Shown here in pieces: positions 54,027-62,575 of a DNA stretch of 64,000 bases. Numbering within the stretch: the first letter of the stretch is position 1; every line of letters begins with the position of its first letter. The notes beneath the pieces are model-generated. The model was not told the origin of the DNA. It did not search any database and saw only the letters and a list, made by a program, of their open reading frames with translations. The translations under genes were made by a program, and so were the position numbers. Source of the DNA: an uncultured Kiritimatiellota bacterium (GTDB lineage Bacteria > Verrucomicrobiota > Kiritimatiellia > RFP12 > DVOR01). The stretch is taken from positions 1 through 64,000 of the forward strand of contig CALXMV010000008.1 of the NCBI GenBank assembly GCA_944389565.1, given 5' to 3'.

Positions 54027-55646
54027 TCAGGGGGTGGGGGCGTCCGGGCACGCCTCCGCGTCGGTGTGGCCGAGGAGGGTGATGCGGCGCGCGTGGTCGG
54101 AGAAGGGGCGGAAGGCCTTGAGCAGACGGTCGCGGGCCTTGGCGTCGCGGAGTCGGACCCCGGGGATGCGCATGAGGGTGGTGAGGAGCGTCTCGGGGCG
54201 ATGGTTGCCGTGGCGCACGTTGAGGACGAGGTTGTCAAGCAGGTCGTCGAGCGCGGGCATGTCCTGGGTGTCGAGGAGCGCCTCGTCGAGGGCTTGGCGC
54301 GTGGCGGCGAGGGTCTCGGCGTCGTCGTAGTAATGGGGCGCTTGGTTGAAATCGCCGTAACGGAAGAGTTCCTGCGCCGTGGGCGGGAGGTAAAACGACG
54401 CGCTTCGCGCCTGTTCTTCGAGGAGGGGCAGGCCGAGGGTGTCGAGATAGAGGTCGACGAGGTCCGAGCAGACGATGAGGCGATTCTCGATGGGGGTGGC
54501 CTCGGCGTCGTCGTATACGTCGTCCTCCCCCAGGATGCCGAAGGTGATCTCGGCCTCGGGGGCGTGGCGGCGGATGGCGGCGTAGGCCAGGAAGTCCTCG
54601 CGGGAGACGAGGCCGGGGGAGACGCGTTCGATGAGGGCATGGGCCGCCTGAACGGGGAGGATACCGTAGAGGTCGGCGAAGGCGGCGAGGTGGCGCGTGA
54701 GGGCCGTGACGGTCTCGGCGGGGAGGGGGATGGCGGCGTAGAGGGCGTCGGCGCCCCGGCCGGAAAGGGTATCGGGGAGGAGCCCATGGCCGTTTTCGGG
54801 GGCTTGGCGGATGAGCGCGGCGATTTCGGCGTTGTGGCGGTCCTCCTCCGCGCGGAGCAGGGGCTCGCCCTCGGCGAAGGTGCGCCCGCCGAGGCTTTGG
54901 AGCGGGAGCGTGGCGAAGTAGTCGCGGATGAGCGCGTCGAAGTCGGCGTCCAGGCTGGGGCGAAAGCCTTTGAGCAGCGCATGGGCGAGGCTGAGGGCGG
55001 AGTCGGGGGTGCCCCACTGCAGGCGCCGCAGGAAGGCATCAACGGTATCGGCGAGGGCTTCTGGTGTCTTTGCTTCCGGCAAATCCCATCCACGCAGGTG
55101 GGTGACCAAGGCCTCGCGCGCTTTGGCGTGGGCCTCCCGAGCCTCTTTCCGCTCCGGTGCGTTGAGGCGTTCGAGCCCGCCGACCTGCCTGTGGCAAGTC
55201 AGCAGGAAGTCGAAAGCGCCCACGGGGTCTTCGTATTCCAAGACGGTGGCATCGCAGAGGTAGCGCCCTTTGGCGCCGTTGACGGGACGGCCGAAGAGCG
55301 TCTCGTTGTCGAGGATGACGAAGTCCCGTTCGCCGGGGCGGTCGTGCGCGGCGATGCGGGCGAAGGCGAGGAAGGTCTGCTCGTCGAAGTTGGGATCGTC
55401 CACGCGGAGCAGGTCGGCGGCCTCGCGCAGCGTGAGGATGCCATAGCGGTCCGCGAGGCGCGCGAGGAGACCGAGGAACGTGCGCAGGTCGTCGGGCGTG
55501 GAGAGGAGCTTGGCGTATTGCCGCACCAGGCGCGTGGCGTGGTAGGGGGTGGGCAGGGCGATGCCGCCGACGACGTTCGGGGTGGGGTTGGCGCGGCGGC
55601 GGCCGGTCTCGGCGGGGCGTTTCTTGGTCTTTTTCTTGGCGGCCAT
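54027..55646 (-). CDS. Unknown protein with an internal duplication
   Basis: I do not recognise the family. The 539-residue protein has a basic N-terminus (AAKKKTKKR) and no signal peptide or membrane segment. Two related modules are visible at about 58-112 and 317-371. Both read LA-(A/D)-YGIL, then an alpha-helix, then FLA(F/Y)A-I---H and a strand ending in (V/G)IL(D/G). The modules sit at the start of two halves of about 260 residues. This helical pattern recalls modules of SEC-C-type proteins, but no SEC-C zinc motif is present. It starts 3 bases after the amidohydrolase stop, without its own ribosome binding site. Confidence 0.6.
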   Translation of the reverse strand: MAAKKKTKKRPAETGRRRANPTPNVVGGIALPTPYHATRLVRQYAKLLSTPDDLRTFLGLLARLADRYGILTLREAADLLRVDDPNFDEQTFLAFARIAAHDRPGERDFVILDNETLFGRPVNGAKGRYLCDATVLEYEDPVGAFDFLLTCHRQVGGLERLNAPERKEAREAHAKAREALVTHLRGWDLPEAKTPEALADTVDAFLRRLQWGTPDSALSLAHALLKGFRPSLDADFDALIRDYFATLPLQSLGGRTFAEGEPLLRAEEDRHNAEIAALIRQAPENGHGLLPDTLSGRGADALYAAIPLPAETVTALTRHLAAFADLYGILPVQAAHALIERVSPGLVSREDFLAYAAIRRHAPEAEITFGILGEDDVYDDAEATPIENRLIVCSDLVDLYLDTLGLPLLEEQARSASFYLPPTAQELFRYGDFNQAPHYYDDAETLAATRQALDEALLDTQDMPALDDLLDNLVLNVRHGNHRPETLLTTLMRIPGVRLRDAKARDRLLKAFRPFSDHARRITLLGHTDAEACPDAPTP

Positions 55647-57075: not shown

Positions 57076-58559
57076 CACAGTGCGTTCGCGAAGGGATCCC
57101 CCAGCGCCTCCAGGCGGGCCTTGAGCGTCGCGCGGTCGGCGGCCAGCCAATCCGCGCGTGCCTCGGCGAGGTTGCGCGTCTCATGGGGATCCTCGTTCAG
57201 GTCATACATCGCGGCGCCCAGGCGGTTCGCCTTGGGGTCGTGCACGAAAACGGTTTTGCGCGCGGCGGTGCGCAGGCCGCGTTTGCCGGCGGGGGCGTCG
57301 GCGGCGCGCGGCCCCGGCGCCACGGGGTGCGTCGGGAAGTCGTCTGGCGCGGCCGAACGGCCGAGGTGGAGGTAGAGGCGCGGCTCCGAGAGGTCGTGCG
57401 CCCGTTCGCCGAGGAGGTGGGCGGAGAGGTCGCGCCCCACCATGTGCGGCGGGATGGGCTGGCCCAGGAGGCCGAGGAGGGTGGGGGCCAGGTCGAAGGC
57501 GTCCACCAGCCCGGCATCCATCCCCGGCGCGATATGCCCCGGCCAGCGGAAGAGGCAGGGGATGCGCACGCTTTCCTCGAAGGGGTTGTTCTTCGCCGGC
57601 AGACCGTGCGCCCCCAGGCAGCACCCGTGGTCGGAGCAGAAGAGCACCACCGTGTCCTCGCGGTGGCCGGTCGCCTCCAACGCGTCCAGAATCCGCCCGA
57701 ACTGCTCGTCCACCCCCTCCACGGCGGCCAGATAATCGCCGACGCTCGCGCGGAAATGGTCGCCCATCGGCGTGCCGGCGGGCGGGTAGGCGCCGGTGGC
57801 GAGCGTCTCGGGGGAACGCCCGCGGTAACGGCGCCGGTAGCGCTCCGGCACGAGGTCGTAGCCCGTGTGCGGCGGGTTCATCGAGACGACGAGCGCGAAG
57901 GGCGCCCGCGCCTCGCGCAGGAAGGCCTCCGCCTCCCCCGCCTCATGCTCGGGCCCCCACGCGTCCACGAAGCGGAAACCCTCGCGCGGCGCGTCGGTGT
58001 CCCAGTACATCGGGCGCAGATGGTCGTCGTAGGTGCCATAGGCGTGCCAGCGGTTGAAGCCGTGCCGGCGTGCCGGCGGGCACCACTCGTTCCACTTGTT
58101 CGCGCCGCGGTTGTTGCGCGTGGGCACCCAGGGGCGGCGCGGCGCGTCGAGATGCCATTTGCCGATGTAGCAGAGGTCGTAACCCGCCGCCGCCAACACG
58201 TCCGACCAACACGTCAGATCCGCCCGCAATTCGGGCCCCGTGCGCGTCTCGGTCGAGACGCAGTTGCCCGTCACCCCGCTCACCCACGGCAACGCGCCCG
58301 ACATCAGGATCGCGCGGAAGGGACTGCAGACCGGATAGTTGCTCATCGCCTGCGTGAAGACCCTGGCCTCCCGCGCGAAGGCGTCCAGGCGCGGCGTGCG
58401 CACGGCGTCGGCCCCCATGAAGCCCAATGCCTGCGCCCGCATCTGGTCGGGGAAGACGATCACGAGGTTCGGCCGCGTGCCGGCCCGGCCGGCGCCCGCG
58501 CATCCCGCGCAGAGCGCCGACCCGCACGCCGCGAGGAAGGCCCGTCGCGTCAGCGCCAT
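57075..58559 (-). CDS. Exported sulfatase (type I), CSPFR variant
   Basis: The 494-residue enzyme begins with LTRRAFLAACGSAL, a twin-arginine-like signal with a possible lipobox (LCAGC, C20). The sulfatase core has PDQMR with the metal-binding D38, the formylglycine site C78-S-P-F-R, GKWH, and the DHG segment SDHGCCLGAHG. CSPFR fits the general CxPxR rule but differs from the CTPSR of the sulfatase at 8987, so the two probably belong to different subfamilies. ATG at 58559 shares a base with the upstream stop; GTG at 58562 is an alternative. Substrate unknown. Confidence 0.92.
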   Translation of the reverse strand: MALTRRAFLAACGSALCAGCAGAGRAGTRPNLVIVFPDQMRAQALGFMGADAVRTPRLDAFAREARVFTQAMSNYPVCSPFRAILMSGALPWVSGVTGNCVSTETRTGPELRADLTCWSDVLAAAGYDLCYIGKWHLDAPRRPWVPTRNNRGANKWNEWCPPARRHGFNRWHAYGTYDDHLRPMYWDTDAPREGFRFVDAWGPEHEAGEAEAFLREARAPFALVVSMNPPHTGYDLVPERYRRRYRGRSPETLATGAYPPAGTPMGDHFRASVGDYLAAVEGVDEQFGRILDALEATGHREDTVVLFCSDHGCCLGAHGLPAKNNPFEESVRIPCLFRWPGHIAPGMDAGLVDAFDLAPTLLGLLGQPIPPHMVGRDLSAHLLGERAHDLSEPRLYLHLGRSAAPDDFPTHPVAPGPRAADAPAGKRGLRTAARKTVFVHDPKANRLGAAMYDLNEDPHETRNLAEARADWLAADRATLKARLEALGDPFANAL

Positions 58560-59827
58560 CACGGCTCCAGGGATTTCAGGATCTCCCGGGCCTCATCCTC
58601 GCTCATCGGCGGGGTCGTCCCGTCCGAGAGCGCCTTGGCCTCATCATCCTTGGCCTCCTCGGCCTGACGCTGGGCGGCCTCCTGCATGGCTTCCCGCTCG
58701 GCCTGGGCCTTCAGACAGGCGACGATCTCATTGATGACCGCGGCGGTCGTTTGCGCCGAGACGTCCATGGAGACCGTCGTGACGGCCCCCTCGGACGCCA
58801 CGCCGATCCCGGCGATGGCCTTGGCCGTCGCGGAGGCGGGGTTCTGGGTCACCATCGGGATGAACATCTGCGAGAGGAGCGCGCGGTAGCCCATGAGCGC
58901 GTCGCGCAACAGCCCCGCGTTCTCGGGATCGGCCATCTGCGCATCGACCTTGCCCGAGAAGAGGGTCGGGGAGGCGTAATACGAGGTCGTCATCACACGA
59001 CGCACCTTCGTCAGCCACGGCACGGAAAGGGCGATCTTCTGCCGCGCCTCCTCGGAGTCTTCCGTGAAGCGGGTGACGAGCCCGCCCAGGTCGCGCACGG
59101 CGAGGCGGCTCCACTCCCCGTCGGTGGCGGGGGCCTTGAAGATTTCGGCCAGGGGGTCGTCGGCCTTCAGCGTCTCGGCCTTCCCCGCCACCAAGGCCTC
59201 CGCCTTGGCCAGGGTCGGCGTCACCGCGAAGACCAGCCCTTCCGCGTAGGACCGCCACCCTAGGTAGAGCGGCTCGTCCACCTTCGGCTCGCCCTCCACC
59301 TTCAGCGCGGTCCAGGCGCCTTCCGTGACCAGCTCGATCCCCTCGTCTTTGCCCTTGGCTTTTTGGTCGGCGACCCACTCCTTCATGGCCGCGTTGAGCG
59401 CAGGGAGATTCACCTCGCGGTTCTCCACGAAGGCATAAACCGCCACTTGCGTCTTCAGCGTCGTGGCCTCGCTCTGCCGCTCGATGCTCGGATCCCTCAG
59501 GAACGACACCGAGACCGTCATCGCGCGCACCTTGGTGAAATTACCGTCGTCGGAGAGCCCGAAGGCCTCGCGCATGACGATTTTGCCCTGCTCAGGCAGG
59601 AGATCCATGAACGACGGCTGATCGGTCTTCCGGAGCCCATCCAGATCCCCGCCCGCGGCCCGCACCGCGGCCTCAAAGGCCTTCGTGTGCTTCCGGTCGA
59701 GCGGATTGTCGGCCACGAACACGATATCCGCGTTCGCCGGCACGTACTCCGGTCTCGGCGCGCCAAACGCCAACCCCGCGGCCAACGCCACCCCGCAAAA
59801 CCAAACCAGTCGCGACTGCTTCTTCAT
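58559..59827 (-). CDS. Exported protein of unknown function
   Basis: I do not recognise a family. The 422-residue protein has a signal peptide (about 1-22, ending near AFGAP). The mature part starts with VPANADIVFVADNPLD, like the opening of DUF3352-type exported proteins. A mixed alpha/beta body follows, and a highly charged Glu/Ala-rich coiled-coil-like C-terminus (about 365-422). AAAGGA precedes the ATG. It heads the sulfatase-trmB-amidohydrolase operon and overlaps the sulfatase start, so a role in the envelope alongside the sulfatase is possible. Confidence 0.6.
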   Translation of the reverse strand: MKKQSRLVWFCGVALAAGLAFGAPRPEYVPANADIVFVADNPLDRKHTKAFEAAVRAAGGDLDGLRKTDQPSFMDLLPEQGKIVMREAFGLSDDGNFTKVRAMTVSVSFLRDPSIERQSEATTLKTQVAVYAFVENREVNLPALNAAMKEWVADQKAKGKDEGIELVTEGAWTALKVEGEPKVDEPLYLGWRSYAEGLVFAVTPTLAKAEALVAGKAETLKADDPLAEIFKAPATDGEWSRLAVRDLGGLVTRFTEDSEEARQKIALSVPWLTKVRRVMTTSYYASPTLFSGKVDAQMADPENAGLLRDALMGYRALLSQMFIPMVTQNPASATAKAIAGIGVASEGAVTTVSMDVSAQTTAAVINEIVACLKAQAEREAMQEAAQRQAEEAKDDEAKALSDGTTPPMSEDEAREILKSLEP

Positions 59828-59863
59828 GAATCACGTCCTTTCATGCGATTGACAACGCCGGAT

Positions 59864-59892
59864 AGTCTACCAACTCCCACACCCCTTGGCAA
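59864..59892 (-). promoter_or_regulatory. Promoter of the exported protein-sulfatase operon
   Basis: On the minus strand TTGCCA (59892-59887) is 17 bases from TAGACT (59869-59864), preceded by TGG. Confidence 0.65.
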
Positions 59893-59930
59893 CCCGCCGC
59901 CGAGGCATGTGCGGGGGGGGCGCGATTTGC

Positions 59931-59936
59931 TATACT
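59931..59936 (+). promoter_or_regulatory. Promoter -10 of the nuclease-ATPase gene
   Basis: The extended -10 TTTGCTATACT lies about 50 bases before the ATG at 59988, with AAAGGACGGAG as ribosome binding site. It diverges from the exported protein-sulfatase promoter. Confidence 0.6.
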
Positions 59937-59987
59937 GTGGGCGGCCGTCATGGTGGCGGCCTTAGGGAAAGGACGGAGTCGGCGCGG

Positions 59988-61988
59988 ATGGCCGGGGAAA
60001 CGGAGGAGTTGCCGCTTTTCGGCGCGGACGCGGCGCGGGGGGAGACCGCCGGTGCCGGGGGGCTGGACGTGGCGCGGCTGTCGTTCGAGAGGGCGGAGAC
60101 GCTGACGTGGCGGGAGCTTTTCGAGGGGTTCGATTCGTTGCGGGCGATCACCTATTCGTCGGGGGTCGGGTTCGTGTGCGAGCTGGTGGGGATGTTCGAG
60201 GACGCGGAGGTGATTTTCGGCAGCGAGGAGGTGATGTCCTTCTCGTTGCAGGAGGTGATGGCGTACCAATGCAAGTTGCTGGAGCGTCTGCGGGAGGGTG
60301 CGGGCAAGGCGCGGGTGGATCTGGCGGCGCGGGTGGGGGCGGGCACGTTGCGGCTGTTCGTGGCGCGGGGGCGGCTGTCGCACGAGAAGGTCTATCTGCT
60401 CGCGGCGAAGGATGGCCGGCGGCGGGTGGTGATGGGATCGGCCAATCTGTCGTTCGCGGCGTTTGGCGGGCTCCAGCGCGAGAATATCGCGTGCTTGGAC
60501 GGGGAGGCGGCGTACACGTGGTATCTGGCGGGGTATGAACGGTTGCGCGAGGCGAGCACCGACCGGATCGGGCGGGAGGCGCTGGCGTTGGGCGACGCGG
60601 AGGCCAATCTGGAGGCGCTCCCGATCGCCGGCACGGTGAAGGTGCGCAAGGCGCTCGTCGTCGAGACGGTGCCGGAGGCGCGGGAGGAGGTACGCTTCGT
60701 GCTGGACGTGCGCAATCTGGCCGCCAAGCTCGCCCCCGCCGTGCCCAAGCCGGACAAGAAGGGGCGGCTCGTCCTCTCCCCGGAAAAGGTCAAGATCGTC
60801 CGTCGCCAGGTGATGGAGGATCGCGCCAAGGAGCGCGAGGTGCGCAGCGAGTACCCGCAGCTGGAGGTCTTCGTCGACGCGGGGGAGGCGCGGCTGAACG
60901 ACGTGCCGCTCGACCTCGCGCCGCCGGCCGAGGCGGTCGCCCATGACGTCGCCCTCTTCCTGCGGTACATGGATGGCTACGAGAAGTTCCATGGCGACGT
61001 GTCGGGGATGCAACGGCGCTATTTCGAGTTCGCGAACTGGTTTTTCTGCTCGCCCTTCATGGCCGCCATGCGCGACATGGCGACCCGTCACAACCAGAAC
61101 CTCCTGCCGTATCCCGTCTTCGGCCTCGTCTATGGCCAGAGCAAGGCCGGGAAGACCAGCTTCCTGGAGACGCTCCTGAAGATGATGATCGGGCAGAAGA
61201 CGAAGATCTCGGCGCCGGAGTTCACCCGCTCCAGCATCGAGGGCCTCAAGCGCACCGTCAAGGGCGCGCCCATCATCGTCGACGACCTCACGAACACCCG
61301 TTTCAACCAGCACGCCATCGAGACCATCAAGAACGACGACTTCGGCGTCTCCGACCGCCTGCTCCATTACCCCGCCGTCGTCATCAGCGCCAACGAGGAC
61401 GTCAAGGCCGTCGCGCCCGAGGTCATCCGCCGCACCGTCATCTGCCGCGTCCAGGCCGGCCTCACCAACACCGAGGTCATGCGCAGCAGCGTCGTGCGCA
61501 CCGTCCAGCGCGAGGTCGGCACCGCCCTTTACCGCGAGTACCTGCGCCGGATGCTGGAGGTCGCCGCCGACCTGCTTGAGCGCATGAAGGACGACGCCTC
61601 CGAAAGCGCGCCCGACATCCTGGCCGCCTCCTCGCGCGTCTTGGGCGACCTCTTCGCCGCCCACGCCCCGGGGCCGCTCCCGCCCTACATCCGCCCCCTC
61701 ACGCTCGACGACTATTTCAGCGAGAAGGTCACCGGCTCCTACGCCATCAAGACCATCCGCGACGCATGGGCCACCAGCCGCGCCTCTTTCGACGTCTCGC
61801 CCCGCTTCAACCGCCTGCAATACGACGCCGGCGCCACGTGGGAGGCCGACCGCATCCTCAAGGAACTCCCCGAGACCCTGGAGGCGCACAAATCCCGCAA
61901 CTGGGTCGTCATGAACCTCGACGCCGCCCGCGCCTTCTTTGAGATCCCCTTCGGGCGGTCGCTCCTCGACCGCCTGCTCCGCCGCTAG
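59988..61988 (+). CDS. Phospholipase-D-like nuclease fused to a P-loop ATPase
   Basis: The 666-residue protein joins two activities. The N-terminal part (about 35-190) is a PLD-like nuclease domain with one HKD-type motif: H132-E-K134 and G150-S151-A152-N153-L154-S155. A single motif means it must dimerise to be active, as in BfiI-like nucleases. After a linker (about 220-310), the C-terminal part (about 315-560) is an ATPase: Walker A GQSKAGKTS (383-391), Walker B IIVDD (429-433), a sensor VISANED (465-471), and arginines R481-R482. Its style is closer to SF3/VirE-like helicases than to AAA proteases. Nuclease-plus-ATPase fusions are typical of anti-phage or anti-plasmid proteins, but this role is inferred. 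Confidence 0.8.
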   Translation: MAGETEELPLFGADAARGETAGAGGLDVARLSFERAETLTWRELFEGFDSLRAITYSSGVGFVCELVGMFEDAEVIFGSEEVMSFSLQEVMAYQCKLLERLREGAGKARVDLAARVGAGTLRLFVARGRLSHEKVYLLAAKDGRRRVVMGSANLSFAAFGGLQRENIACLDGEAAYTWYLAGYERLREASTDRIGREALALGDAEANLEALPIAGTVKVRKALVVETVPEAREEVRFVLDVRNLAAKLAPAVPKPDKKGRLVLSPEKVKIVRRQVMEDRAKEREVRSEYPQLEVFVDAGEARLNDVPLDLAPPAEAVAHDVALFLRYMDGYEKFHGDVSGMQRRYFEFANWFFCSPFMAAMRDMATRHNQNLLPYPVFGLVYGQSKAGKTSFLETLLKMMIGQKTKISAPEFTRSSIEGLKRTVKGAPIIVDDLTNTRFNQHAIETIKNDDFGVSDRLLHYPAVVISANEDVKAVAPEVIRRTVICRVQAGLTNTEVMRSSVVRTVQREVGTALYREYLRRMLEVAADLLERMKDDASESAPDILAASSRVLGDLFAAHAPGPLPPYIRPLTLDDYFSEKVTGSYAIKTIRDAWATSRASFDVSPRFNRLQYDAGATWEADRILKELPETLEAHKSRNWVVMNLDAARAFFEIPFGRSLLDRLLRR

Positions 61989-62008: not shown

Positions 62009-62575
62009 ATGCTCCCTCCCGAAGAGACCGCACGCATCACCCGCCGCCTCGACCTCAACGAGCGCCTCGTCTGGGCCGGCCGCCCCAAACCCACCGCCTT
62101 CGCCGTCACCACCGTCTTCCCCATGCTCTTCGGCGTCGCCTGGTGCTCCTTCGTCTCCCTTTTCATCGTGCAGATCGTCGGGGATTTTTGGGGCAAGGTC
62201 CACGCCGCCGACTTCCAGGGGCTGACGTGGGCGCAGATTTCCCCCCTCCTCTTCATGATCCCCTTCGTCCTCGCCGGCCTCGCCACCCTGGGCGCCCCGC
62301 TCTGGCACTATCTCGCCATGGCCGGCCAACGCTACGCCGTCACCGACAAACGCGCCCTCATCGTCGGCCGCTTCTTCACCCGGAGCCGCCGCCGCGCCGA
62401 GATCACGTGCGTCGACCGCGCCGACCATCGCAACGGCCTCACCGACCTCTTCTTCGCCTCCTCCAACGTCTACGTCAACGGCCAGCCCCAGCCCTTCGGC
62501 TTCCGCAACCTCCCCACCGCCGAGGCCCTCGCCGCCGAACGGGCCCTGCGCGCCCTCACCGACGGGCAGGCCTGA
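62009..62575 (+). CDS. PH-domain membrane protein
   Basis: The 188-residue protein has two hydrophobic helices (about 30-55 and 78-100), then a bacterial pleckstrin-homology-like domain (about 105-160: YAVTDKRALIVGRFF). Such proteins are small inner-membrane proteins of poorly known function. AAAGGA precedes the ATG, 20 bases after the nuclease-ATPase stop, so the two are likely co-transcribed. Its stop shares a base with the HAD gene start. Confidence 0.8.
   Translation: MLPPEETARITRRLDLNERLVWAGRPKPTAFAVTTVFPMLFGVAWCSFVSLFIVQIVGDFWGKVHAADFQGLTWAQISPLLFMIPFVLAGLATLGAPLWHYLAMAGQRYAVTDKRALIVGRFFTRSRRRAEITCVDRADHRNGLTDLFFASSNVYVNGQPQPFGFRNLPTAEALAAERALRALTDGQA

Follow-up and report, generated by a model that had tools for sequence, protein, structure and literature searches.

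A single-chain PLD nuclease–AAA+ ATPase related to archaeal AgaP, a candidate stand-alone defence enzyme in bacteria

The window, by which we mean the whole stretch of 64,000 nucleotides that was analysed, carries on its forward strand a complete gene for a 666-aa fusion of a PLD nuclease and an AAA+ ATPase (59988–61988, one open reading frame from the ATG at 59988 to the stop codon at 61986–61988), which is the sole copy in its own genome and has relatives at 64 homologous loci. An upstream in-frame TTG at 59886 is the open alternative start, and we favour the ATG because the N-terminus of the homologues is conserved and because a putative ribosome-binding stretch, AGGACGGAG (59970–59978, forward strand), places AGGA/GGAG 10–18 bases 5′ of it. 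The gene and its left neighbour (58559–59827, reverse strand) point away from each other across an intergenic gap of 160 bp (59828–59987), and the two must therefore be transcribed separately. A sequence-only reading of this DNA had also granted the gene a promoter of its own, which the consensus scan does not bear out, as no plus-strand sigma-70-like site was found; the coordinates, frame, and motif positions given in that reading are all exact when checked on the sequence, and its placement of the gene amid housekeeping genes holds as well.

Three other genes of the window encode proteins with no Pfam match. These are the left neighbour itself, which occurs as tandem divergent copies in several congeners (G008–G010 and G013), the gene at 54027–55646, and the gene for a small protein at 62009–62575, which is duplicated in tandem in G005, G006, and G012 and has another copy in the window's own genome.

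Residues of about 26–190 (60063–60557; this and all further features of the gene lie on the forward strand) form the PLD-family nuclease domain. The AlphaFold model of the whole protein (pLDDT 80.6) contains the PLD fold and matches the PLD nuclease R.NgoAVII (4rct; Foldseek E 2.6e-5). The Pfam families RE_NgoFVII and PLDc_2 are found in 52/52 members, both below cut-off for the window protein (PF09565 at E 1.1e-4 and 22 bits, just below the 23.8-bit cut-off, with a best member at E 2.1e-10). The predicted active site comprises an HxK motif, H132-E133-K134 (60381–60389), and a second half, GSAN, at residues 150–153 (60435–60446). H132, K134, and G150–N153 are invariant in the 52 full-length homologues that we aligned; H and K also occur in AgaP and the plasmid relatives described below, and G, S, and N in AgaP. 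These homologues are 53–82% identical to the window protein, so the motifs are not a product of chance. Judged by its catalytic residues and predicted fold, the protein is a member of the PLD nuclease superfamily, of the NgoFVII type.

A mostly helical connector predicted at residues of about 191–310 (60558–60917) leads to a P-loop ATPase domain at about 311–560 (60918–61667), which contains a Walker A motif, GQSKAGKTS, at residues 383–391 (61134–61160), a Walker B motif, IIVDD, at 429–433 (61272–61286), an ISAN motif at 466–469 (61383–61394) that resembles sensor 1 or the SF3 motif C, and a candidate arginine finger at R481-R482 (61428–61433). Both Walker motifs are conserved in the homologues, with G383, S385–T390, D432, and D433 invariant in all 52; ISAN and R481 are likewise invariant in this set, N469 extends to AgaP and the plasmid relatives, and R482 is invariant across the distant set. 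Mean identity to the homologues reaches 89% in the ATPase core (residues 371–500), compared with 58% in the PLD domain and 21% in the first 25 residues. The nuclease with H132, K134, and GSAN and the ATPase with its two Walker motifs were both named in the sequence-only reading, and both stand.

In the whole-chain model, the ATPase half shows a Rossmann-like strand order and resembles AAA+ helicases, namely SCCmec Cch (Foldseek E 3.1e-5), polyomavirus large T (JCV, also at E<=1e-3), the SaPI5 primase-helicase, and poxvirus/ASFV D5 proteins, and, in the viral structure library, phage primase-helicases. Folded alone, the domain has no PDB match below E 1e-3, and p97 and Cch score similarly, with a best TM of 0.44 (Cch). 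Walker A, Walker B, N469, and R481, together with the model, identify the motor half as an AAA+ P-loop ATPase; because the isolated domain matches nothing below E 1e-3, we assign the class and regard the subclass (SF3/D5 type) as uncertain. The chain ends in a helix/strand domain (residues 561–666; 61668–61985) with a basic hydrophobic tail, which, from the secondary structure of the model, is probably winged-helix-like. PDB sequence searches with the protein and with profiles returned zero matches, and no model in NCBIfam, PHROG, or PADLOC fits the protein, its Pfam matches lying below cut-off.

The disordered N-terminal tail contains ELPLF at residues 7–11 (60006–60020), which resembles the sliding-clamp-binding motif QL[SD]LF; the bacterial consensus is given as QL[S/D]LF or QxxLF (PMC12309361). 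The pattern x-[LIMVF]-x-[LIMVF]-F occurs within the first 35 residues of 57/60 homologues, a count that treats proteins of shared ancestry as if they were independent, compared with a mean of 8.3 and a maximum of 18 of the 60 in shuffled tails and with 24/128 and 18/119 unrelated proteins of the same genomes. F11 is kept in 51/52 rows of the alignment within a tail that averages 21% identity. Eight homologues carry the canonical Q at the first position (QISLF, QITLF, QLELF, and others), whereas N, E, or T takes its place in the majority, which weakens the case for clamp binding. Across the homologues L001–L064, the N-termini read as a conserved [ENQ]-[LIM]-[SD]-L-F, like the DnaN clamp-binding motif. 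The sliding clamp possibly recruits the protein through this peptide, and, if the motif is functional, it would offer a nuclease that lacks sequence recognition a route to replicating invader DNA.

A search of plasmid proteins was the source of the distant relatives, with Acetobacter and Komagataeibacter plasmids at 27–29% identity and weaker matches in Arcobacter and Thermus. It also returned haloarchaeal proteins, aligned over the ATPase half only; the gene for one of them directly follows a Piwi gene. The match from Natrinema pellirubrum is AgaP, the effector of the Argonaute-PLD (APAP) system: the 717-aa reading frame that we recovered has H105, K107, G157, S158, and N160, exactly the published numbering (PMC11442185). 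The same reading frame also contains a Walker A motif, GESNGGKG (447–454), the Walker B residues DD (498–499), and FISND, and the key ATPase residues are conserved in an alignment of five further diverse haloarchaeal relatives of AgaP, three of which have Piwi directly upstream and two of which have none. Aligned with hhalign, the window family and AgaP match with a probability of 99.3% and an E of 9.5e-21 over 570 columns (residues 41–664 of the window protein); a narrower AgaP profile gives E 1.4e-11, and the plasmid branch of acetic-acid bacteria matches at E 3.7e-59 over 617 columns. Taken together, the profile alignments indicate that the window protein is a distant full-length relative of AgaP, within the same extended protein family, with the same domain order, PLD residues, and C-terminal ATPase motifs. 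It differs from AgaP in its bacterial origin, in identity (about 22%), in the spacing of HxK to GSxN (16 residues, against about 50 in N. pellirubrum), in the N-terminal clamp-like motif, and in the missing Argonaute partner gene.

The missing partner decides membership in APAP, which we reject, as there is no adjacent long-A Argonaute (PIWI) gene. None of the family members has an Argonaute neighbour at its locus, and PIWI was undetected in 29/30 genomes that carry the family, the window's own and 28 others, and present in one. The experiments on AgaP show that it is toxic without its Argonaute, that this toxicity depends on the PLD residues, that plasmid resistance requires H105/K107, and that AgaP enhances immunity to a halovirus (PMC11442185). 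The Argonaute partner restrains AgaP, and a solo enzyme would have to escape self-toxicity by other means, which counts against reading the window protein as such an enzyme. The published description of AgaP comprises an N-terminal PLD domain only, with the word ATPase absent from the text (PMC11442185). The sequence-only reading had not recognised the one-chain layout as a named system; the layout does have a precedent, since AgaP shares it.

Among the other named systems, the closest likeness in a single chain is SauUSI, a type IV restriction enzyme that also joins an N-terminal PLD nuclease to an ATPase, but its motor is an SF2 helicase and it carries an SRA target-recognition domain (PMC7913695), whereas the window protein has an AAA+ motor and no recognisable target-recognition domain; ResIII, Helicase_C, and SRA matches are absent from the protein, and SauUSI-type and type IV restriction are thereby ruled out. 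CglI and NgoAVII share the PLD fold, which is closest to R.NgoAVII, and the coupling of a nuclease to NTP hydrolysis, but consist of two subunits (R/N) and include a B3 domain, an SF2-type motor, and a methyltransferase (PMC4267653), and neither these nor a second subunit were found at the window locus. SCCmec Cch, SaPI5 Rep, and the SF3/D5 replicative helicases are the nearest folds of the AAA+ half, including the motif C-like ISAN, but serve as helicases in replication and lack a PLD domain, and the similarity is at the level of the fold only. DISARM and Mokosh, the earlier examples of PLD-containing systems, share that domain, and MADS mad8 shows a weak ATPase similarity (E 0.009, one domain only); the genes that accompany these three systems are not present at the window locus. 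The best match in PADLOC-DB 2.0 is ZacB (E 0.0053, one domain only), and, with no significant component profile match in that library, DISARM, Mokosh, MADS, Zac, and its other named systems are rejected.

The scan of GTDB genomes finds carriers in 7/17 genomes of the genus, 17/162 of the order, and 6/199 of the Gemmiger family, weak and broken copies included. The protein tree places the window clade inside a set of 24 rows, 19 of them Bacillota, with 99/92 support, and puts the other Kiritimatiellota copies in a separate clade; some rows are metagenome bins, which makes single placements unsafe. The gene has been horizontally transferred between phyla, and the simplest reading of the tree is at least two entries into the Kiritimatiellota lineage. 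The genes that flank the family gene in the window adjoin it at none of the congeneric loci L001–L003. The left flank (the 58559 gene, a sulfatase, trmB, and an amidohydrolase) is syntenic in G009 and G013, two congeners that lack the gene, whereas the right flank is not, and no clean empty-site comparison was obtained between the two.

Identical or near-identical proteins occur in bins labelled as different families (L007/L008 and L014/L016/L017), pointing to either recent transfer or mis-binned contigs. L062 and G106:C26 are broken copies with a frameshift or stop codon, in keeping with a dispensable gene. On the Thermus oshimai plasmid pTHEOS02 (L074, 9968–13026), a transposase-family gene separates the two parts of the family match, and the gene looks interrupted.

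This distribution bears on the reading of the protein as a DNA-repair or genome-maintenance enzyme, for example a Tdp1-like end-cleaning enzyme with an AAA+ remodeller, recruited to the sliding clamp. Haloarchaeal relatives are annotated as tyrosyl-DNA phosphodiesterases, Tyr-DNA_phospho matches in Pfam exist but are weak, the N-terminal motif is clamp-like, and the window neighbours are housekeeping genes. Against it, the gene is missing from 10/17 congeners and 145/162 genomes of the order, moves between phyla, and decays in some genomes (L062, G106), its homologues adjoin defence genes, and its relative AgaP restricts plasmids (PMC11442185), all of which leaves a repair role unlikely.

Many homologues have defence genes beside them, which argues for defence, though not uniformly. 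Pfam scans of chosen neighbours identify a type III CRISPR Csm6, McrB/McrC, a PLD-ResIII-DUF3427 protein, and a Schlafen-group-3 helicase, as well as DUF6998, NUDIX, and HD-CE proteins; inspection of the sequences added HsdMSR, DUF262, Dcm, and AlbA-like neighbours. When ORFs within 7.5 kb of 13 homologues were compared with arbitrary stretches of the same 13 genomes, using a crude ORF caller, 225 PADLOC models matched at E<=1e-15 in the neighbourhoods (128 ORFs) and 22 in the controls (119 ORFs), a count of redundant models rather than genes that gives a direction only and for which we claim no p-value. No conserved metabolic operon surrounds the homologues. The immediate neighbours are nevertheless housekeeping genes in the window and at L001–L003, L028, and L049, which counts against defence. 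No constant partner gene was found, and neighbour families reach 9 loci each at most, so the gene would act alone or with scattered partners.

A recurring set of genes accompanies the homologues of Gemmiger and Agathobaculum (L006, L012, L015, L018, L024, and L047), comprising a PLD-ResIII-DUF3427 helicase, a NUDIX hydrolase, a small MazG/PRA-PH-like protein, and DUF6998, and may represent a distinct, mosaic defence cluster.

The lack of a shared neighbour also weighs on a toxin-like abortive-infection effector, whose PLD domain would degrade host DNA once the ATPase senses infection. In other systems, effectors are commonly under the control of AAA+ or STAND-type switches, which would suit such a design. 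The toxicity of AgaP alone through its PLD residues (PMC11442185) would suit it as well. However, APAP itself acts without abortive infection (PMC11442185), and the neighbourhoods show no antitoxin or restrainer gene that recurs, the largest shared neighbour family spanning 9 loci, and we consider this reading quite improbable. Least credible, and very unlikely on our estimate, is a replication protein of a selfish element, a Rep-like initiator with PLD in place of an HUH nuclease and an SF3/D5-type replicative helicase as its AAA+ part, which draws on the structural resemblance of the ATPase half to such helicases and on the plasmid location of distant relatives but is opposed by the lack of a relative in 50,697 phage records and in IMG/VR contigs, by the replication initiators that Arcobacter and Komagataeibacter plasmids with a relative carry themselves, by the occurrence of the family as a chromosomal solo gene of gut bacteria with one full copy per genome, and by the action of AgaP's PLD residues against plasmids, not for them (PMC11442185).

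We consider it reasonably likely, from the combined analysis, that the window protein is a defence enzyme which has spread horizontally and acts on its own, in the manner of AgaP but without Argonaute, and that the gene is probably a one-gene defence system missed by current catalogues. The earlier suggestion that the nuclease-ATPase fusion may serve in defence gains good support from the AgaP homology, the neighbours, and the patchy transfer. AAA+ modules usually form rings, and PLD nucleases of the NgoFVII type pair to build one active site; the protein would accordingly oligomerise. The DNA-binding-like C-terminal part would bring it to replicating or foreign DNA, possibly helped by the N-terminal clamp-binding peptide, where ATP binding or hydrolysis would license or drive PLD cleavage of the bound DNA, and this cleavage would clear plasmids or phage genomes. 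The experimental precedent is the PLD-residue-dependent toxicity and plasmid restriction, together with the antiviral enhancement, established for AgaP only (PMC11442185).

A bolder picture, which we hold only tentatively and think somewhat doubtful as a whole, gives gut bacteria a widespread immune enzyme encoded by one gene, with an AAA+ ring that would gate or feed the PLD nuclease and a clamp peptide that would deliver the enzyme to replication forks; with AgaP it would form two branches of a single class, PLD-AAA+ immune motors, for which Argonaute is optional. We found no description of the bacterial solo branch in the open-access literature, and it may be described elsewhere. The AgaP homology connects an archaeal immune effector shown by experiment with a bacterial gene that is unnamed and widely transferred, and defence surveys that use the PADLOC, NCBIfam, or PHROG libraries would miss the family.

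On the archaeal side, the comparison gives the AgaP effector an ATPase half on which its original description is silent, and raises the questions of whether ATP hydrolysis is required by AgaP and what makes Argonaute necessary in some branches but not in others. The C-terminal AAA+ ATPase is present in AgaP and haloarchaeal relatives (L117, 7017–9167, and L151–L155), including two with no adjoining Piwi gene (L154 and L155). On the haloarchaeal plasmids L118, L120, and L121 (and L077), the AgaP relative is embedded in a long common block that contains a UvrD helicase, a PD-(D/E)XK nuclease, a large helicase, two DEAD/DEAH helicases, and an RNase H-like protein, with a ThiF protein in some.
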